55,019 nt of DNA, taken from the IMG/VR virus record IMGVR_UViG_3300028557_000047, positions 1 through 55,019 of that record, one strand, 5' to 3'. Position numbers and translations under genes: made by a program. Under the pieces are notes generated by a model. That model was not told where the DNA came from, made no database searches, and saw only the letters and a list, made by a program, of their open reading frames with translations. This document shows, piece by piece, positions 12,679 through 46,389 of this stretch. Source of the stretch: a virus. The first letter of the stretch is position 1, and each line of letters starts with the position of its first letter.

Positions 12679-13073
12679 TGTCAACACTAGATAACGCACT
12701 AGGACTTACTCCATACAAACCAGAAAAACAAAGTCCTACACTAGTTCAAACTGAGAATGTAGATACGGTAGACTTTGATCATGCCAGGTCAACACTCTAT
12801 GATGTGCTCGAGGAAACCAAGTCCGCAGTAGATGAAATGATCGGCATTGCTAGCCAGTCTCAGCACCCAAAGTCATACGAAGTGCTCAATGGCATACTTA
12901 AGACTATGGCAGATGTAAGTATGAACTTAGTGGACTTGGATATAAAGCGACGTAAAGTGCTCGGTGCTACAGAAGCGGCCGCTGCTCCTGTGACAAATAA
13001 TCTGTTTGTCGGTAGCACTGCTGAGTTGCAAATGATGATTGCTCAGATGCAAGCAAGTAAAGATGAGCAGTGA
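12678..13073 (+). CDS. gp16: Terminase small subunit gp16
   Basis: A 131-residue small terminase subunit, which in T4 forms a ring that regulates DNA recognition and gp17 ATPase/nuclease activity. It is predicted mostly helical, with a central coiled region (about 35-100) and a short C-terminal tail. Identification rests on position immediately before gp17 and on the YDVLEETKSAVDEMI...AQSQHPKSYEVL style conserved in marine T4-like gp16. It is shorter than T4 gp16 (164). Its 3' end overlaps the true gp17 start by 11 bases. Confidence 0.82.
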   Translation: MSTLDNALGLTPYKPEKQSPTLVQTENVDTVDFDHARSTLYDVLEETKSAVDEMIGIASQSQHPKSYEVLNGILKTMADVSMNLVDLDIKRRKVLGATEAAAAPVTNNLFVGSTAELQMMIAQMQASKDEQ

Positions 13074-15339
13074 GTTTAAGGGCTACAATGGCAATCACAA
13101 TCTAAAGAAAGGCGGAGTTCAGATTGACTGGACTCCCGCCCTAGTACAAGAGTATCTAAAGTGTTCACAGGACCCAGTATACTTCTGTGAAACTTACATG
13201 AAGATCATTAACGTCGACGAAGGTCTAATCCCATTCGAGATGTATGATTACCAAAAGGAAATGATTACCAGTATGGCGGATAATCGCTATACTATTATCA
13301 CCACGGCTCGCCAGACCGGAAAATGTGTTGATGGGGGCACAAAGGTAGAAATTAAGTTTTTAGACTCTGGTTGGGCAAAGCTTTCTATTAGCACGATTCA
13401 TGAAATTAGTCTTTTTGTAAATAACTACAGGTTACGGTGGTTGCAGGAAGACGACTATAATGTTTTTAGAAAACAAGTATACATTTACTTATCTTCTATT
13501 GATGAGGAAGAGGCAAACGTATTTGATCGACTTTGGAGAGAAGCATCACATACTACCAAAGTCTCTTGGTGGGAGCAACTTACCAGAACATCTAGTTATA
13601 ATGAAAGCAGTCTGGGCGCTAAGGAAAGCGACAAAAAATTCATTGAGTCCTTCAGCCTAACCGGTTTTTATACTACATCAAGTGACGGTGTGGTTCCCAT
13701 TTCGGAATCCCACAAAACTATTGAATATAATGTCTGGGAACTAGTAACAGAAACAAAAACACTAAACGCAGCTGATATGCATATAGTGTTTTTGAAAAAT
13801 GATGTGCAAAAATTCATAAAAGACTTAATGTTAGGTGATGAAATCATTACTGACACTGGGTTAGAAAAGATTATATCAGTCACAAAGACAGCCCGTTCTG
13901 TTAATATGTATGATCTTGGTATTAATCATGAACAGCATCGCTATTATACCAATGGAATTTTATCCCATAACAGCACCACTACTTGCGGGTTTATTCTTTG
14001 GTACATTCTATTCCACTCTGAAAAAACGGTTGCTCTACTTGCAAACAAAGGCGATACCGCCCGAGAAATTCTAAGTAAGATTCAGCTTGCTTATGAGCAT
14101 CTACCCAAGTGGCTTCAGCAAGGTGTGCGCGAATGGAATAAGGGTTCGTTTGAATTAGAAAACAACTCCAGAGTTATTGCTACTGCCACCAGTGGCAACA
14201 ACATCCGTGGTTATGCCATTAACCTACTGTTCATCGACGAAGCCGCGTTTATTGCTAACTGGGAAGAATTCTTCACATCAGTACTACCTACTATCTCGTC
14301 CGGTAAGTCCACAAAAATTGTGCTTGTGTCTACTCCAAACGGGCTAAATCACTTCCATAAACTTTGGGCTGGTGCCAATGATGGGACCAATAACTTTAAT
14401 CCGATTAAGGTTATGTGGAGCGAAGTGCCGGGGAGAGATGAGACCTGGAAAAAAGATACTCTAGCAGCGATGGGTAACGATACGGAAAAGTTCAACCAAG
14501 AACACTGCTGTGAATTCCTAGGCAGTTCTGGCACTCTCATTGCTGGCTGGAAGCTAAAAGAACTGACTTTCAAACTCCCTCGACTTGCTGGGGAAGGTGT
14601 TTCTCAGTACGAAGCTCCAATCCCGGATAACAAATATGTAATGGTGTGTGATGTGTCACGAGGTAAGGGTCTTGACTATTCTGCATTTCAGTTGATCGAT
14701 ACCACTGCCATGCCTTACCGGCAAGTAATGGTTTACCGAAATAATCTAATTTCACCGATTGACTATGCCGAAGTGATCCATCGAATTGCAAAGACGTACA
14801 ACAATGCCGCCATTCTGGTGGAATCCAATGATATCGGGCAACAAGTTGCCGACACAATCTATCAAGAATATGAGTATGAAAATATCCTATTTACTGAGGG
14901 TGCTGGTAGGGCTGGTAAGAAAATCTCATCTGGCTTTAGTTCTGGGTCTGACATTGGCGTCCGAACCACAAAATCTGTTAAGGCGGTCGGATGTTCTATT
15001 CTCAAACTACTCATCGAACAGAACCAACTTATTCTTCGCGATCATCAAACTATTAAAGAAATATCTACGTTCTCAAAGAAAGCCAACTCATTCGAGGCCG
15101 AGTCTGGTTGTCACGATGATTTGGTCATGGGACTAGTACTATTTGCCTGGCTATCCGACCAGCAGTACTTTAAAGACATGACGGACATTAATACTCTCAT
15201 GCGACTAAGAGAAAAAACGGAAGATGAATGGGATAGAGAACTGATTCCGTTCGGCTTTATTGAAACCGGGCAAGAGGAACACGAAGATATAGTGGAACTT
15301 AAGCCTGGCGATACATTTGAGTCAAGACTGTGCGGCTAG
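13063..15339 (+). CDS. gp17: Terminase large subunit gp17, intein-containing precursor
   Basis: DNA-packaging ATPase and headful nuclease. The start chosen is ATG 13063 (MSSEFKG), overlapping gp16; an in-frame ATG at 13039 lies well inside gp16. The precursor is 758 residues. Removing the 216-residue intein (residues 88-303) leaves a 542-residue mature protein with a rebuilt Walker A (ARQTGK joined to STTTCGF), Walker B LLFIDEAAF, and an RNase H-like nuclease (MVCDVSRGKGLDYSAF, later HDDLVMGLVLFAW). The flanking extein matches T4 gp17 order and spacing. As the insert splits the P-loop, packaging must depend on splicing. Confidence 0.93.
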   Translation: MSSEFKGYNGNHNLKKGGVQIDWTPALVQEYLKCSQDPVYFCETYMKIINVDEGLIPFEMYDYQKEMITSMADNRYTIITTARQTGKCVDGGTKVEIKFLDSGWAKLSISTIHEISLFVNNYRLRWLQEDDYNVFRKQVYIYLSSIDEEEANVFDRLWREASHTTKVSWWEQLTRTSSYNESSLGAKESDKKFIESFSLTGFYTTSSDGVVPISESHKTIEYNVWELVTETKTLNAADMHIVFLKNDVQKFIKDLMLGDEIITDTGLEKIISVTKTARSVNMYDLGINHEQHRYYTNGILSHNSTTTCGFILWYILFHSEKTVALLANKGDTAREILSKIQLAYEHLPKWLQQGVREWNKGSFELENNSRVIATATSGNNIRGYAINLLFIDEAAFIANWEEFFTSVLPTISSGKSTKIVLVSTPNGLNHFHKLWAGANDGTNNFNPIKVMWSEVPGRDETWKKDTLAAMGNDTEKFNQEHCCEFLGSSGTLIAGWKLKELTFKLPRLAGEGVSQYEAPIPDNKYVMVCDVSRGKGLDYSAFQLIDTTAMPYRQVMVYRNNLISPIDYAEVIHRIAKTYNNAAILVESNDIGQQVADTIYQEYEYENILFTEGAGRAGKKISSGFSSGSDIGVRTTKSVKAVGCSILKLLIEQNQLILRDHQTIKEISTFSKKANSFEAESGCHDDLVMGLVLFAWLSDQQYFKDMTDINTLMRLREKTEDEWDRELIPFGFIETGQEEHEDIVELKPGDTFESRLCG
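13324..13971 (+). other. Intein in gp17 Walker A motif (216 residues)
   Basis: The insert starts with Cys1 (CVDGGTKVEI, block A) directly after ARQTGK and ends HRYYTNGILSHN (blocks F and G with the penultimate His and terminal Asn), followed by Ser as the +1 extein nucleophile. A block-B-like T-x-x-x-x-H (TLNAADMH) and a KDLMLGDEI segment complete the Hint fold. Between block A and block B there is about 75 residues of extra sequence with no LAGLIDADG motif; this segment covers an out-of-frame HNH remnant. All splicing residues look intact, so the intein should be active. P-loop insertion is typical of inteins, since the site is hard to lose or mutate. Confidence 0.92.
13460..13660 (+). pseudogene. 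HNH homing endonuclease relic, out of frame inside the intein
   Basis: In the +1 frame relative to gp17, an open stretch of 66 codons encodes FGEKHHILPKSLGGSN followed by LPEHLVIM. This matches the HNH homing-endonuclease core of T4-like phages (EKHHIIPKSLGGSN..ENLV) residue for residue over the catalytic His pair and the Gly-Gly turn; the second conserved Asn appears as His. The upstream NKYTFTY...KRQ also fits the family's N-terminal helix. It ends at a stop without the downstream helix, and gp17 itself reads through the same DNA in another frame. The simplest reading is a frameshifted endonuclease whose flanks stayed in frame to preserve splicing. An AGGAAG ten bases before ATG 13460 leaves open independent translation of a fragment. 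Confidence 0.78.
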
Positions 15340-22223: not shown

Positions 22224-22850
22224 ATGAAAAAATTCTCACAGTTCCTTGAACCTAAAAAAGGCGAGGCCTCAAAGGCCACTGGGTATCTCCGGGTCCGTTC
22301 ACCAGACGAGCAGCGGTTTCTTGATGCTCATAGGCTAGAGGTAACTCCTGATGCCAATGGCAATGACGACGATCTGTTCAAAGCCAAAACCATCAAGTAC
22401 ATTAAGCGTAAGCCAGAGCGCCATGGTTATGATGCTCCTAGAGATGCCGAAGTGAACGAAGCTACAATGTGTTCAGCCGATCGTAGAAAAGCTAGACTCA
22501 GAGAAAAGCTTAATGGCGCCAAAACAATGAAGGAAGATGCTAAGTCTGCTTCATACAGTGAGATTAACGTGCGCGAACCAAACGGCAAGATTGTTACTCG
22601 CAAGAAAAAAGACGTAATCAAGTTAGAGTCAATTCTTGATACAGATTATGGTGTGCCTATTATTCTTGAGTTTGCCGATCACACGGAACGGCTGCCGACC
22701 GCTAAGGAAGTTGCTCTAATGAGTGCAACTATTAACTCACTCTCAGAAGCTAACGCTAACGAGTTTATCATCACAGCGGAACGAAATGCTGCTGGCTTTG
22801 ATGCCATGCTTTCGTTTGCTATTGAAAACAAAGAACTACTGGGGGTCTAA
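22224..22850 (+). CDS. Prohead-core-region protein (gp68 position)
   Basis: A 208-residue protein in the position of T4 gp68, between the gp67-like gene and gp21. The N-terminus MKKFSQFLEPKK resembles the F-x-x-F-(I/L/V)-x-E peptides that target proteins to the T4 prohead core. About residues 55-75 read KYIKRKPERHGYDAPRDAEVNEA, closely like KKERKGYDPGADEAVYE in the protein at 19720. The C-terminal half (from 110) looks globular: ILEFADHTERLPTAKEVALM. Function unknown; core or scaffold role inferred. Confidence 0.5.
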   Translation: MKKFSQFLEPKKGEASKATGYLRVRSPDEQRFLDAHRLEVTPDANGNDDDLFKAKTIKYIKRKPERHGYDAPRDAEVNEATMCSADRRKARLREKLNGAKTMKEDAKSASYSEINVREPNGKIVTRKKKDVIKLESILDTDYGVPIILEFADHTERLPTAKEVALMSATINSLSEANANEFIITAERNAAGFDAMLSFAIENKELLGV

Positions 22851-23237: not shown

Positions 23238-23906
23238 ATGAAGCTTATTACCGAAATTAACGAAGATGTAAAGTATGTGACTGAAGCCAAGGAAGATGGC
23301 ACCAAGTCGCTATACATCCAAGGCCCATTCTTGCAAGCAGAGATCACCAATCGTAATGGTCGGTGCTATCCTGCTAGCATTATGGAAAATGAGGTAAACA
23401 GATATACAAAGGAACTTGTGGGCTGTGGGCGCGCCCTTGGTGAACTTGGGCACCCTGACACTCCTGCAATTAATCTTGACCGGGTGTCACATATGATTGT
23501 AAGTCTAGTCCGTGAAGGTAATAACTGGAACGGCAAAGCTAAAATCATGAATACTCCAATGGGAAATATTGCTCGTGGACTTATCGAGGATGGAGTTCGG
23601 CTTGGAGTTTCTTCCCGTGGCCTTGGTTCACTAGAAAATAGAAATGGTATCAAATACGTTAAAGAAGACTTCCGTATCTCAACCGCCGCAGATATTGTAG
23701 CCGATCCTTCTGCCCCCGATGCATTTGTTAATGGCATCATGGAGGGAGTTGAATATTGGTATGACTCAAAGGGCGCTCTGGTCGCAGAACAAATTGCAGA
23801 TCGCGCCCGTAAGGATATCGAAACTCTAGCCAGAACTCGTAAGCTCACAGAAGCCAATAAACTTAAAGCTTTCAAGTCATATCTCAATCGTCTAACCAAG
23901 TCTTAA
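23238..23906 (+). CDS. gp21: Prohead maturation protease gp21
   Basis: A 222-residue serine protease of the T4 prohead family (herpesvirus-assemblin-like fold). The expected catalytic residues are visible: His72 in GRALGELGHPDTPAINL and Ser125/126 in LGVSSRGLGSL. YIQGPFLQAEITNRNGRCYP at the N-terminus is the family signature. It cleaves scaffold and capsid precursors after (L/I/V)-x-Glu sites and then itself. Its length matches T4 gp21 (212). It is the last gene before the gp22 late promoter. Confidence 0.95.
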   Translation: MKLITEINEDVKYVTEAKEDGTKSLYIQGPFLQAEITNRNGRCYPASIMENEVNRYTKELVGCGRALGELGHPDTPAINLDRVSHMIVSLVREGNNWNGKAKIMNTPMGNIARGLIEDGVRLGVSSRGLGSLENRNGIKYVKEDFRISTAADIVADPSAPDAFVNGIMEGVEYWYDSKGALVAEQIADRARKDIETLARTRKLTEANKLKAFKSYLNRLTKS

Positions 23907-23960: not shown

Positions 23961-24986
23961 ATGTCCGAACTACCAGAAGATGACTACATTGACGATCTAG
24001 AAGATTATCTAGACGATGAAGAAGACGACCTAGAGCCCGTTGACGAATCCGCTGCATCCGATACACTTGCTCCAGGCAAGGGGTCTGGTGGTGGTGATCA
24101 GGGTCGCACTCAACTCATGGCCTCAGTCGTTGCTGCTATGGGCGGCATGGGCAAGGAAGACCTCAACAAGTTCAGTGAGGTTCTTGCTCAATTTGCCAAG
24201 AACAAGATGCCCGGCGCGGTTGATAACTCTGCCAAGAATAAGAACTCAATTCGTGCTACTGGTGTGGTTCGTGAGGATGTTGATGCTCTTTTTGAAGGCC
24301 AGGACCTATCCGAAGAGTTCAAGGCCAAGACCACTGCTCTGTTTGAAGCCGCAGTTTCAATCCAAGTTGAACTAGAAGTTGCTCGTCTCGAGGAAGCTTT
24401 TGAAGAACAGCTTGCAGAAGAAACGCAAGAGATTGAAACTCGCCTTGGTAAGTATCTTGACCACATTGTAGAAGAATGGCTCGAAGAAAATCAGATTGCC
24501 ATTGATTCTTCACTTCGGGTTGAAGCCACAGAGAACTTTATTGAAGGCCTTCGTAACCTATTCGCCGAGAACTTCATCGATGTTCCCGATGAGCGTCTAG
24601 ATATCGTTGGTGAACTATCGGCTCAACTTGAAGCCCTTGAGGATAAGCTAGATGAAGTAATCAATGAAAACATCGAACTCACTTCACTAGTCAATGAAGC
24701 CACACTAGAAGCTACATTCGAGGATGTTGCTGAAGGTCTTGCCATTACTCAAGTAGAAAAGCTACGCAATATTGCTGAAAACCTAAGCTTTGACTCGGTT
24801 GAAGAGTACAAGGAAAAGCTAGAACTCGTTCGTGAAAATTACTTCACTGCAAAACCAGCAACCTCAGAGTTATTCACCGAATCATTTGTTGCCCCAACTT
24901 CAATCTTTGAAGAAGCAGAAACCACAATTGCGGACCCTACAATGAATCGGTATGCCCAAGCCATCGCCAAAACCACTAAGAAATAA
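23961..24986 (+). CDS. gp22: Prohead core scaffold gp22
   Basis: A 341-residue scaffold. It starts with an acidic segment (DDYIDDLEDYLDDEEDDLEP), followed by a Gly-rich linker and then a long Glu-rich helical/coiled-coil region (about 115-290), as in T4 gp22. The C-terminal NRYAQAIAK(T)TKK is a strongly conserved gp22 terminus. It is longer than T4 gp22 (269). Several (L/I)-x-E sites suitable for gp21 digestion occur. It is translated from a late promoter and immediately precedes the capsid gene, whose own promoter boosts capsid over scaffold. Confidence 0.93.
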   Translation: MSELPEDDYIDDLEDYLDDEEDDLEPVDESAASDTLAPGKGSGGGDQGRTQLMASVVAAMGGMGKEDLNKFSEVLAQFAKNKMPGAVDNSAKNKNSIRATGVVREDVDALFEGQDLSEEFKAKTTALFEAAVSIQVELEVARLEEAFEEQLAEETQEIETRLGKYLDHIVEEWLEENQIAIDSSLRVEATENFIEGLRNLFAENFIDVPDERLDIVGELSAQLEALEDKLDEVINENIELTSLVNEATLEATFEDVAEGLAITQVEKLRNIAENLSFDSVEEYKEKLELVRENYFTAKPATSELFTESFVAPTSIFEEAETTIADPTMNRYAQAIAKTTKK

Positions 24987-25032: not shown

Positions 25033-26352
25033 ATGAATCTCACAGAAGAAAACCTACGCAATAAGTGGCAGCCAATTCTAGAGCATGCTGACCTTGCCCC
25101 AATCGTTAGCGCCCAGCGCCGCGACATTACTGCTACTCTACTAGAGAACACAGAAATTGCGCTACGCGAAAGCGGCTCTTTCCAAGGTCACACTCTACTT
25201 GGCGAGTCACCAGCCAACGTCACTGGTTCATCCATTGACAATTTCGACCCAGTCCTAATCTCACTTGTCCGTCGTTCAATGCCTAACCTAATGGCATATG
25301 ATATCTGCGGCGTTCAGGCCATGACAGGCCCTTCAGGTCTAATCTTCGCCATGCGCGCCCGTTATGGTGCTCAGAACGGTCCCGAGGCCTTCTACAATGA
25401 AGCCAACACCGGCTTCTCAACCATCGGTTCCGGTAACACTACTGTTAACCTAGCTGGTGGCCGTAATATCGGTGCCAACCTTACTTCTTCTAACAACGCC
25501 GGTTCAAACACCTATAACTATGCTACCGGTCTTGCTACTTCAGTCGGTGAACTATACGGTAACTCAACTGTTGAAATTCCTGAAATGTCCTTCTCAGTCG
25601 AGAAGGTTACTGCAACCGCTGTTACCCGTGCTCTAAAGGCCGAGTACACAATGGAACTTGCGCAGGACCTCAAGTCAATCCACGGTCTAGATGCCGAGAG
25701 CGAACTTGCTAACATCCTATCAGCCGAACTAATTGCCGACATCAACCGTGAAGTTGTCCGCGCCATTAACGTCTCCGCCGTTCAGGGTGCTTCATCCGAT
25801 ACTACTACTGCTGGTATCTTTGACCTAGACACCGACTCAAACGGCCGCTGGTCAGTTGAGAAGTTCAAGGGTCTAATGTTCCAGATCGAGCGTGAAGCTA
25901 ACAAGATTGCCCGTGACACTCGTCGCGGTAAGGGTAACATCGTGATCTGTTCATCTGATGTTGCTTCAGCCCTACAAATGGCTGGTGTCCTTGACTATGC
26001 TCCTGCTCTAAACAGCAACAACCTAAATGTTGATGACACCGGCAATACCTTCGCTGGTGTTCTTAACGGCCGCATGAAGGTCTACATCGACCCATATGCT
26101 GGCACTAACTATATGACCGTCGGTTATAAGGGTGCTGGTAAGTTCGATGCTGGTCTATTCTATTGCCCCTACGTTCCTCTACAAATGGTTCGTGCGACCG
26201 ATACCAGTTCATTCCAGCCCAAGATCGGCTTCAAGACCCGCTATGCCATGGTTGCCAACCCATTTGCCGAAGGTACTACCGAGGGCAATGGCGCTATCAC
26301 TCAAGATACCAACCGGTATTACCGCCGGATCATCGTTCAGAACCTACTATAA
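25033..26352 (+). CDS. gp23: Major capsid protein gp23
   Basis: A 439-residue HK97-fold capsid precursor. Conserved segments include SIDNFDPVLISLVRRSMPNLMAYDICGVQAM near residues 65-95, PEMSFSVEKVTATAVTRALKAEYTMELAQDLKSIHGLDAE, and LFYCPYVPLQMVRA near the end. The N-terminal propeptide probably ends at Glu58 (HTLLGE before SPANVTG), which fits the gp21 rule. It is shorter than T4 gp23 (521), as in marine relatives. Its Leu codons are about two-thirds CTA, the rest CTT/CTC, with no CTG, TTA or TTG that I can find, a marked codon bias. A strong Rho-independent terminator follows. Confidence 0.97.
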   Translation: MNLTEENLRNKWQPILEHADLAPIVSAQRRDITATLLENTEIALRESGSFQGHTLLGESPANVTGSSIDNFDPVLISLVRRSMPNLMAYDICGVQAMTGPSGLIFAMRARYGAQNGPEAFYNEANTGFSTIGSGNTTVNLAGGRNIGANLTSSNNAGSNTYNYATGLATSVGELYGNSTVEIPEMSFSVEKVTATAVTRALKAEYTMELAQDLKSIHGLDAESELANILSAELIADINREVVRAINVSAVQGASSDTTTAGIFDLDTDSNGRWSVEKFKGLMFQIEREANKIARDTRRGKGNIVICSSDVASALQMAGVLDYAPALNSNNLNVDDTGNTFAGVLNGRMKVYIDPYAGTNYMTVGYKGAGKFDAGLFYCPYVPLQMVRATDTSSFQPKIGFKTRYAMVANPFAEGTTEGNGAITQDTNRYYRRIIVQNLL

Positions 26353-43447: not shown

Positions 43448-43957
43448 ATGACTATGAACACACTTAAATACGCTACAAATGACGTTATCGGCTTTCATCT
43501 AGCATTCAATCATCCAGCTCCACTCACCCCTACCATGCTAACTAGAGAACGCGCAGCGCAGCGTGCTAGTTGGTGTGAGGAGGAAGCTCAAGAACTACGT
43601 GATGCCACTACTCTTGTAGAACAAGCTGATGCGGCTATTGACGGGCTTTATTTTAATATCGGAATCCTTGTAGAGCTTGGACTAGACCCAGGCCCGCTGT
43701 GGGATATTGTCCATACAGCCAATATGAAAAAGTTACATCTAATCGATGGTGTCTACAAAGTGGTATACTATCCTGAAGGGCACCCAAAAGCCGGCAAAGT
43801 TATGAAGCCCGCGAACTGGGCCGACCCAGGCCCAGAGCTTCAGACCGAGATTGATGGGCAAATTCGGCGTGCCGCAGCAATGGAAGAACTTGAAAAGATT
43901 GCTGAATACCAGGACAAACTCGAGGCTCTAAAATGGGTGGCGCAAAATAGCGGTTGA
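43448..43957 (+). CDS. MazG/PRA-PH-like nucleotide pyrophosphohydrolase
   Basis: A 169-residue all-alpha NTP-pyrophosphatase-like protein starting at ATG 43448 or 43454. The metal-binding pattern is visible: RASWCEEEAQELRDA (E-x-x-E), followed by QADAAIDGLYFNIGILVELGLDPGPLWDIVHTANMKKL, with the D-x-x-x-D of the family. These enzymes hydrolyse nucleoside triphosphates to monophosphates. The C-terminal 60 residues are a charged helix. Adjacent thyX suggests a dUTP/dCTP or modified-nucleotide role, but substrate is unknown. Confidence 0.72.
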   Translation: MTMNTLKYATNDVIGFHLAFNHPAPLTPTMLTRERAAQRASWCEEEAQELRDATTLVEQADAAIDGLYFNIGILVELGLDPGPLWDIVHTANMKKLHLIDGVYKVVYYPEGHPKAGKVMKPANWADPGPELQTEIDGQIRRAAAMEELEKIAEYQDKLEALKWVAQNSG

Positions 43958-43981
43958 CTTTAATTAGAGTCCTGTTACTAT
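43954..43981 (+). promoter_or_regulatory. Promoter cassette copy 2
   Basis: TTGACT, 16-base spacer ending TG-T, TACTAT, followed by GATAATAGGAAGTGAAAGG that also supplies a ribosome binding site. The -35 lies in the stop region of the MazG-like gene. Confidence 0.85.
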
Positions 43982-44009
43982 GATAATAGGAAGTGAAAGG
44001 GAATACATT

Positions 44010-44213
44010 ATGATTGATCGTCACGATTTTATAGACCACCGTCTTGAAGCCGCTAAGGCCACCGGAGACCGCTATGCCCGAGAACGGTCTTGGTGCATTA
44101 TCCCTGAAGCGGAAAAGACTCCTATTTCCGTTCGGGTAGTTCTTGGTTGCGTCATTGCTGCCACCGTTCTATTCGTTGCTGTGCCCGTCATTGTTAGAGC
44201 TCTATTGTCGTAA
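44010..44213 (+). CDS. Small membrane protein
   Basis: A 67-residue protein with start ATG 44010; the in-frame ATG at 43980 is part of the promoter cassette. A hydrophilic, charged N-terminus (MIDRHDFIDHRLEAAKATG) is followed by one strong C-terminal membrane helix (VVLGCVIAATVLFVAVPVIV). The expected topology is N-in, single-pass inner membrane. It could be a superinfection, lysis or host-takeover factor, but nothing in the sequence distinguishes these. Confidence 0.55.
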   Translation: MIDRHDFIDHRLEAAKATGDRYARERSWCIIPEAEKTPISVRVVLGCVIAATVLFVAVPVIVRALLS

Positions 44214-44219
44214 ACCCGT

Positions 44220-44247
44220 TTGACATTAATTAGAGTCCTGTTACTAT
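44220..44247 (+). promoter_or_regulatory. Promoter cassette copy 3
   Basis: TTGACA, 16 bases ending TG-T, TACTAT, then GATAATAGGAAGTGAAAGG. Nearly identical to copy 2 although the flanking genes are unrelated. Confidence 0.85.
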
Positions 44248-44274
44248 GATAATAGGAAGTGAAAGGGAATCAAA

Positions 44275-44578: not shown

Positions 44579-44586
44579 TATAAATA
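44579..44586 (+). promoter_or_regulatory. Late promoter for CTS-bearing protein
   Basis: Perfect TATAAATA 34-41 bases before the GTG start at 44620, nine bases after the tRNA CCA. Confidence 0.78.
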
Positions 44587-44619
44587 CGCGATCATGCTTA
44601 GCACACAGGAAATAGCAGA

Positions 44620-45627
44620 GTGAAAACTTTTAATCAATTCGTGGCAGAATCTTACGTTCGAATGACGACTCTTCGAGAAATTGTCGCTGCAATCGCCGTT
44701 CATAAAAAGGCTGGTGAGATTGTAAATCCTGTCTATCAGGACCTCAGCTCTCAAGCTCGTCGTGTCTTTGGCAAAGAAGCCGAGATCGGCCGTGACTTGA
44801 TCCTTAAAGTCATGCATGCTGGTGGCGGCGCACAGAATCGTGACGCTGATATTTCAGATCTTTATTATGCATGGCCACATGACTCATTCCAGGGCCTAGG
44901 CAAGTTTGAAAAGATTCTGCTCAAGGTCGAGAAGATGAAGAAGCAAAATATGGCTCCGGTCATTAAGGCTGGAAAGGACATTCTTGCTAACTGGAAACCT
45001 GTTGCCGAAGACCTTAAAATGCTCAAAGGCAAGGTGGTTAAGATCACTGCTAAACGAGCTCAAGCTAAACAGGCGGCTGCTAAAGAAATGGGCGCAAAAT
45101 TCAATGACTCATCTTCGCTTATCAAGGTGCTGGAAAGCCACCTCGGTGAGTATAAAGCTATGGCTAAACAGCGTGCCGAAGAGTTTATCGAGAATAAACT
45201 CGATTACCTTAGTAAACATGACTGGATTCTAAACAAAGCGGCGCCCTACCCTAGTGGATACGGTGCCGACTACAAGCGGGTGCAGAATATGCGGTCACTG
45301 TATAATTCCATCACCAAGTCAAAGTTTACCAGCCGCCCGGTTGGCGAGCCTGACATTCTTGCGCCCGATCAGCAGAAAATTGATCGCTATGTTAAAAATA
45401 GTGTTGATGGTGCCGAAGCAAGCTATCGTGAGTTCATGGCAAAGATGATCACGAAGATTGGCAAACCAGTTATTGATGCTAAGATGCTTGGCAATATTTG
45501 GACCAATGCGGTGCTAACTGTCACCACAAACGACGGTGAAGAGCAAGTCTGGAACACGAAGATGATCCTGAACTTCTCGAAATACGGCCGGCAATTTAAT
45601 CAGTTTCCATCCCGCCGAAAGAGTTGA
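44620..45627 (+). CDS. Late protein with T4-like capsid-targeting N-terminus
   Basis: A 335-residue Lys/Ala-rich protein read from GTG 44620 with CAGGAAA upstream. The N-terminus MKTFNQFVAES closely resembles the capsid targeting sequence MKTYQEFIAEA of T4 internal proteins, which directs them into the prohead core and is cut after Glu by gp21; the same cut would fall after Glu10. The remainder is helical, with a C-terminal VTTNDGEEQVWNTKMILNFSKYGRQFNQFPSRR. With its late promoter this suggests a packaged and possibly injected protein. No enzymatic motif is recognised. Confidence 0.55.
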   Translation: MKTFNQFVAESYVRMTTLREIVAAIAVHKKAGEIVNPVYQDLSSQARRVFGKEAEIGRDLILKVMHAGGGAQNRDADISDLYYAWPHDSFQGLGKFEKILLKVEKMKKQNMAPVIKAGKDILANWKPVAEDLKMLKGKVVKITAKRAQAKQAAAKEMGAKFNDSSSLIKVLESHLGEYKAMAKQRAEEFIENKLDYLSKHDWILNKAAPYPSGYGADYKRVQNMRSLYNSITKSKFTSRPVGEPDILAPDQQKIDRYVKNSVDGAEASYREFMAKMITKIGKPVIDAKMLGNIWTNAVLTVTTNDGEEQVWNTKMILNFSKYGRQFNQFPSRRKS

Positions 45628-45795: not shown

Positions 45796-46335
45796 TTGAA
45801 TATCTTTTATGTACATGAAAATCCAGTTATAGCAGCTCAAAGTCTCGTTGATAAACACGTTGTGAAAATGGTTCTAGAAACTGCGCAGTTACTATCGACC
45901 GCGCACAGGGTCATTGACGGCGTTATGTCGGTTGATGCATCGTCTGGGCGTAAGAAGAAAGTATGGAAACTACCAGACGACCGAGACGATATTCTGTATA
46001 GCGCTACTCATATTAATCACCCAAGTGCCGTATGGGCTCGACAATCAATCTCAAACTACAACTGGCTGGTTGAGCATTTGTTTGCCCTTGGTGATGAGTA
46101 CACATACCGCTATGGCAAAAAGCATCTGACTATGACTAAGCTAGGGTATGAGCTTCAGTCCCCGCCATTTAAGTTAAAAGAGTATGACTGGACTAAAATG
46201 CCTTCTTGTATGCCAGACTGCTACAAGACGTCGGATAACCCCGTTATCAACTATCGGAACTACTACCGAGGCGACAAAGCCCGTATGCATGCCTGGAAAA
46301 AACGAGATATCCCAGATTGGATTAAAACCGTTTGA
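45796..46335 (+). CDS. Conserved phage protein, function unknown
   Basis: A 179-residue protein with TTG start; the N-terminus NIFYVHENPVIAAQSLVDKHVVKMVLETAQLLSTAHRV matches a widespread phage family in which this motif (D.DP...A...DKHV.KM..E..Q.L) is the signature. It continues HPSAVWARQSISNYNWLVEHLFAL and ends in a basic YYRGDKARMHAWKKRDIPDWI. The family is often of unknown function. A DNA-repair glycosylase relationship has been suggested for some, but I cannot support it from motifs. AAGG precedes the start at nine bases. Confidence 0.65.
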   Translation: MNIFYVHENPVIAAQSLVDKHVVKMVLETAQLLSTAHRVIDGVMSVDASSGRKKKVWKLPDDRDDILYSATHINHPSAVWARQSISNYNWLVEHLFALGDEYTYRYGKKHLTMTKLGYELQSPPFKLKEYDWTKMPSCMPDCYKTSDNPVINYRNYYRGDKARMHAWKKRDIPDWIKTV

Positions 46336-46359
46336 CTTTAATTAAGTTCCTGTTACTAT
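46332..46359 (+). promoter_or_regulatory. Promoter cassette copy 4
   Basis: TTGACT, 16 bases ending TG-T, TACTAT, then GATAATAGGAAGTGAAATGGATAT. The -35 is inside the stop codon region of the preceding gene. Confidence 0.85.
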
Positions 46360-46389
46360 GATAATAGGAAGTGAAATGGATATACATAC

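Follow-up and report, generated by a model that had tools for sequence, protein, structure and literature searches.

The window analyzed here is the whole 55,019-nucleotide stretch of viral DNA in IMG/VR record IMGVR_UViG_3300028557_000047, in which a gene with a GTG start encodes a two-domain protein of 335 residues (Table 1). Because the nearest upstream in-frame stop lies only six codons before GTG 44620, the start of this open reading frame (ORF) is unambiguous. The preliminary description had proposed a late ORF of this length preceded by a perfect late promoter, and both features were confirmed on the plus strand, the ORF at 44620-45627 and the promoter as an exact copy of TATAAATA at 44579-44586. 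This promoter sequence occurs 10 times in the window compared to the 2.5 occurrences expected from shuffled sequences, and other copies precede the genes for the tail sheath, gp22, gp23, and a tail-tube-like protein. Judging from the TATAAATA site, the gene is likely expressed late, as would be required of a T4-type internal protein. Initiation at the internal Met15 could yield a leaderless form that is not packaged, which counts against packaging. Elsewhere in this region, three near-identical stretches of approximately 50 bp (43955-44010, 44218-44272, and 46331-46385; TTGACtTTAATTA...TGTTACTATGATAATAGGAAGTGAAA) each precede genes, and these look like a repeated early promoter of the sigma-70 type.

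Table 1. Coordinates of the late gene, its parts and signals, and the head genes of the window
Feature	Position	Strand	Basis or remark
T4-type late promoter TATAAATA	44579..44586	+	Exact match; 41 nt upstream of the start
Shine-Dalgarno-like AGGA	44607..44610	+	Sequence
Late gene for two-domain 335-aa protein	44620..45627	+	GTG start; 23 IMG/VR relatives, with matches that begin at residue 1 in nearly all
Predicted capsid-targeting leader MKTFNQFVAE, residues 1-10	44620..44649	+	Conservation at positions 4, 7, 8, and 10 across 23 members; these coincide with the positions mapped in T4 IPIII (PMC9026906)
Ser11, predicted N-terminus of the processed protein (prohead-protease cut at Glu10/Ser11)	44650..44652	+	Predicted from the T4 gp21 rule (PMC9026906)
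Helical basic N-domain, residues 12-160	44653..45099	+	AlphaFold2 model, mostly helices; ~150 aa
Met15	44662	+	Shortly after the leader; kept as RMTT in many relatives
C-domain, PHROG 4687, residues 171-333	45130..45618	+	E 1.1e-34, profile 16-182 of 184
Prohead protease, gp21 type, presumed processing enzyme	23238..23906	+	PHROG 207, E 2.6e-74
Prohead scaffold, gp22 type, presumed core where the leader docks	23961..24986	+	PHROG 237, E 4.7e-66
Major head protein, gp23 type	25033..26352	+	PHROG 138, E 9.8e-161

Since the window encodes a gp20 portal in addition to the gp21 protease, the gp22 scaffold, and gp23, the apparatus cognate to a T4-type leader is present. The N-terminal region of gp23 contains the candidate cleavage sites LRE/S and LGE/S. 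The two immediate neighbors of the family gene in contig L020 are gp23 (73% identical to that of the window) and the next head or tail gene, the latter a homolog (42%) of the gene that follows gp23 in the window. The position of the family gene differs between contigs. The closest cultured gp23 proteins are those of Stenotrophomonas phage DLP6, Methylophilales phages Melnitz, Pelagibacter phage HTVC008M, and Sinorhizobium phages phiM7, phiM12, and phiM19, and the full-length protein is absent both from these cultured relatives and from all 50,697 phage records searched.

Two further ORFs of the window deserve mention. The ORF at 22224-22850, located between the gp67-like and gp21 genes, starts with MKKFSQFLEP, which is leader-like except that its Glu is at position 9, and possibly encodes a gp68-like core protein. 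The large terminase ORF (13039-15339) appears to carry an intein-like insertion that extends from near CVDGGTKVEI to ...ILSHNSTTT.

Leader sequences within and beyond the family

The protein begins with MKTFNQFVAES, and translation of the T4 record gives MKTYQEFIAEA for both ipII and ipIII, in agreement with the previously noted likeness to the T4 internal-protein targeting peptide. Experiments on T4 IPIII have established that its ten N-terminal residues are enough for packaging, with residues 4 and 7 determining targeting and residues 8 and 10 determining processing, and that gp21 cleaves after L/I-x-E (PMC9026906). The pattern M-x2-[FY]-x2-[FY]-[FILMV]-x-E is expected by chance 0.1 times per window, and so the leader alone is suggestive only and calls for independent evidence.

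Two IMG/VR scans yielded 23 loci with relatives, all of which open with a leader of the same kind; examples include MKTFAQFVTES, MKSFKSYIKES, MQSFKNYVVES, MHTFRTYIQEA, and MITFKQFLTEA. Leaders were compared among 23 full-length members from uncultivated phages, a set that includes the window protein and three later finds and excludes near-copies. Phe4 is present in all 23, as is Phe or Tyr at position 7. Glu10 is invariant, position 8 holds Ile (13 members), Val (6), Leu (3), or Phe (1), and positions 2, 3, 5, 6, 9, and 11 are variable. The conserved positions are thus exactly the four mapped in T4 IPIII, even in relatives with identities down to 36%. Conservation of this sort across the family rules out a chance origin and indicates that the leader is under selection.

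The gp21-type cleavage after Glu that had been suggested in the preliminary description gains from the invariance of Glu10 and from the presence of the protease gene, with the reservation that the window carries V-A-E where the T4 rule calls for L/I-x-E. Because the conserved positions coincide with those mapped in T4, and given the protease gene, the late promoter, and a relative located within a head gene cluster, a functional T4-type capsid-targeting leader that is cleaved after Glu10 is well supported.

This kind of leader has previously been used to find internal proteins in T-even phages. When the leader was searched as a DNA pattern against a reversed-pattern control, 24 sites versus 3 were obtained in six records of the phage group of the window and 33 versus 2 in fourteen more records, with some of the sites not at gene starts. 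A scan of T4 with the leader pattern returns ipII, ipIII, and gp61.1 only. The annotation of gp61.1 is no more than that of a hypothetical protein, so carrying the motif may not ensure packaging. Genes bearing the leader cluster in runs, such as three consecutive genes in G001 (128590-132109) and a series in G019 (107708-112110). Repeated paralogs that start with MKSFKTYITEKKDHLIDKL, a multiplied leader-bearing family, are also present in G019 (56030-60057 and 108766-111233; L218 and L219).

A search for other genes with this N-terminus, which had been proposed at the outset, recovered proteins with recognizable domains. The first is a homolog of Acb1 (G001:49486-49938, equivalent to L011:9486-9938; PF23474, E 3.8e-28) with the leader MKTFLEYVTE/G and both HxT motifs, whose gene starts approximately 110 bases beyond gp23. 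The anti-CBASS activity of Acb1 is well established, and the T4 gene for this enzyme lies next to ipI (PMC9117128). The second is a protein with an ADP-ribosyltransferase domain (G021:124995-125786, equivalent to L220:2996-3787; PF03496, E 6.4e-12), which has the leader MLNFKEFVTE and is encoded in a run of leader-bearing genes. Further products with the leader include DUF6267 proteins (PF19782) and proteins with a KTDG motif, which by this motif may be ligase-like.

The predicted mature protein and its two domains

Removal of the leader would leave a mature protein of 325 residues (36.7 kDa) with a predicted pI of 9.7 and a net charge of +19. T4 IPIII likewise has a pI of 9.7, compared to 4.1 for the scaffold gp22, and the frequency of [IL]xE sites per 100 residues is 0.6 in the mature protein, 0.5 in IPIII, and 3.5 in gp22. 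Both domains are positively charged across the family. In the full AlphaFold2 model, the leader forms an isolated helix of low confidence. The C-domain modeled alone with a deeper alignment reached a pLDDT of 94.9 and a pTM of 0.85, and its invariant residues include Trp, Asn, Ser, and Gln.

Searches with the window protein gave no usable match in Pfam, NCBIfam, or PADLOC, and only chance-level matches in a sequence-profile search of the PDB. Foldseek comparisons with the PDB returned no match at E <= 0.001 for the full model or for the C-domain model, for which the best hit had an E value of 0.045 and a TM score of 0.2. Structural matches were limited to viral models without assigned function, and no enzymatic or inhibitory activity can be assigned to the protein from its matches.

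The C-domain also occurs as a stand-alone protein of approximately 170-190 residues in Ackermannviridae (including Vi01_185c), Erythrobacter phage XM05, and Pectobacterium phage POP12, and as a protein of 240 residues in Agrobacterium phage 7-7-1. These PHROG 4687 proteins are homologous to the C-domain of the window protein at approximately 35% identity but have no leader and no N-domain. In Vi01 and in Dickeya phage phiDP10.3, the stand-alone gene has the DNA polymerase gene in its vicinity. A proteomic study of Vi01-like virions names a few hypothetical proteins by gene number, none of which could be matched to the PHROG 4687 protein (PMC10892097), and these data were therefore set aside.

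A further scan with the C-domain yielded 80 loci, among which the leader is found on most long two-domain forms and on none of the stand-alone forms. Where the additional loci from a scan with the N-domain profile (A3) were read, all have the C-domain following. With few exceptions, the long forms group together on one side of a tree built from 61 C-domains; L131 was entered as short because its contig cuts off the gene start. This locus and L132 are on the two contigs that a genome scan for the C-domain found in metagenome-assembled genomes, neither of which offers a functional clue. Neighboring genes of some relatives (encoding HAD phosphatase, ligase-like, and cytidylyltransferase-like proteins) had hinted at a role connected with RNA repair or NAD metabolism, but this idea was dropped because the window copy has no such neighbors.

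As a point against the packaging account, four long-form relatives (L163, L165, L172, and L207) lack the canonical leader. L163 starts with MRVNDLLEN and L207, at the likelier of two starts, with MLISQLLEN. Both of these hold an L-x-E motif, and the pattern of their starts recurs elsewhere on the same contigs, while L165 and L172 have neither leader type. A second gene-start motif, MKVxELFE or MRVNDLLE, is commoner than its control in G016, G017, and G009 (the L163, L207, and L037 contigs). Its presence on long-form relatives without the usual leader suggests that it is perhaps an alternative capsid-targeting leader.

Proposed packaging and injection, and competing roles

The observations above are probably best explained if the gene product is an accessory internal head protein that is basic and made late. 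The ten-residue leader would dock the protein into the prohead core, after which a gp21-type protease would remove the leader by cutting between Glu10 and Ser11. The mature protein would then be carried in the head along with the DNA and be ejected into the next host, where the C-domain would act before phage gene expression, most likely by blocking a host defense or by modifying a host target whose nature is speculative. Packaging and processing can be inferred with good support, and injection and a role in counter-defense are plausible by analogy with T4.

This analogy is closest for T4 IPI, IPII, and IPIII, which are injected and each inhibit different GmrSD (type IV) restriction enzymes (PMC12373910). 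They share with the window protein a ten-residue N-terminal leader with Phe or Tyr at positions 4 and 7, an aliphatic residue at 8, and Glu at 10, as well as late expression and a basic mature chain with few protease sites. However, they are smaller (approximately 8-20 kDa when mature, compared to a chain with two domains), no relation was found in the mature part, the residue of the window protein at P3 is Val, and its packaging and injection are inferred. T4 Alt, an ADP-ribosyltransferase that is packaged, ejected, and cleaved by gp21, offers a parallel for the concept of a packaged protein that acts immediately on the host. In contrast to the window protein, Alt has another, shorter propeptide, and neither Pfam, NCBIfam, nor fold matching revealed an ADP-ribosyltransferase domain in the window protein. 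The preliminary description had raised the possibility of an injected effector that counters host defenses. This remains a reasonable proposal given that known effector families share the leader, although the part of the claim that concerns function finds no counterpart in the matches to the protein itself.

Given its charge, a real alternative is that the main purpose of packaging the mature protein is to bind and condense the DNA within the head, or to protect DNA as it enters the cell, with no specific host target. The lysines of T4 internal proteins do touch packaged DNA (PMC3012670), and the positive charge of both domains throughout the family would suit such a role. Nevertheless, the C-domain is predicted with confidence to have a compact fold, and together with the invariant residues this points to a specific ligand. 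Leaderless stand-alone copies also do not suit a packaging function, and so DNA binding as the main role is unlikely.

A slightly poorer prospect is that the protein serves in the prohead core or in assembly, like gp67 or gp68, using the same docking peptide to help build the head and taking no action in the next host. The leader would dock into the core in either case, one relative sits in a head cluster, and the ORF at 22224-22850, between the gp67-like and gp21 genes, also has a leader-like start. Unlike core genes, however, the family gene varies in position and is missing from cultured phages with close gp23 proteins, and this accessory character makes a core role less likely. The protein is also basic with few protease sites, versus the many sites in gp22, and its C-domain is made by other phages as a separate protein that lacks the leader, with some of these phages encoding it beside a DNA polymerase gene. 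It is highly improbable that the N-terminal likeness reflects coincidence or an ordinary amphipathic helix on a protein that stays in the cytoplasm: the 0.1 expected occurrences per window and the pattern in gp61.1, which has no known packaging, give this idea some footing, but the four functional positions are selectively kept, the leader is restricted to the long form, and the pattern is enriched over reversed-pattern controls.

The window gene product is most likely a packaged, ejected protein and represents a new, sizeable member of an already known kind. Because the tag for loading into the head is conserved across its family, the protein is probably a pre-loaded weapon or shield. A more general proposal, which we regard as tentative and somewhat doubtful in its full extent, is that the tagged cargo is interchangeable. 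Many uncultivated T4-like phages might use a removable tag of ten residues to pre-load their heads with proteins for takeover or counter-defense, such as Acb1-type cyclic-nucleotide nucleases, ADP-ribosyltransferases, and ligase-like enzymes. Among the new cargoes identified here, the window protein would then be the one shared most widely, a two-domain effector with a fold unmatched among solved structures, which would have arisen when the tag and a helical domain were joined to what other phages produce as a stand-alone protein.

For distant and uncultivated T4-like phages, the leader signature of four positions can serve as a genome-wide marker, which flags a known anti-CBASS family, an ADP-ribosyltransferase, and many uncharacterized proteins. 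Candidate injected effectors can thereby be listed in a practical manner from sequence alone, and the family of the window protein is well defined among these candidates.
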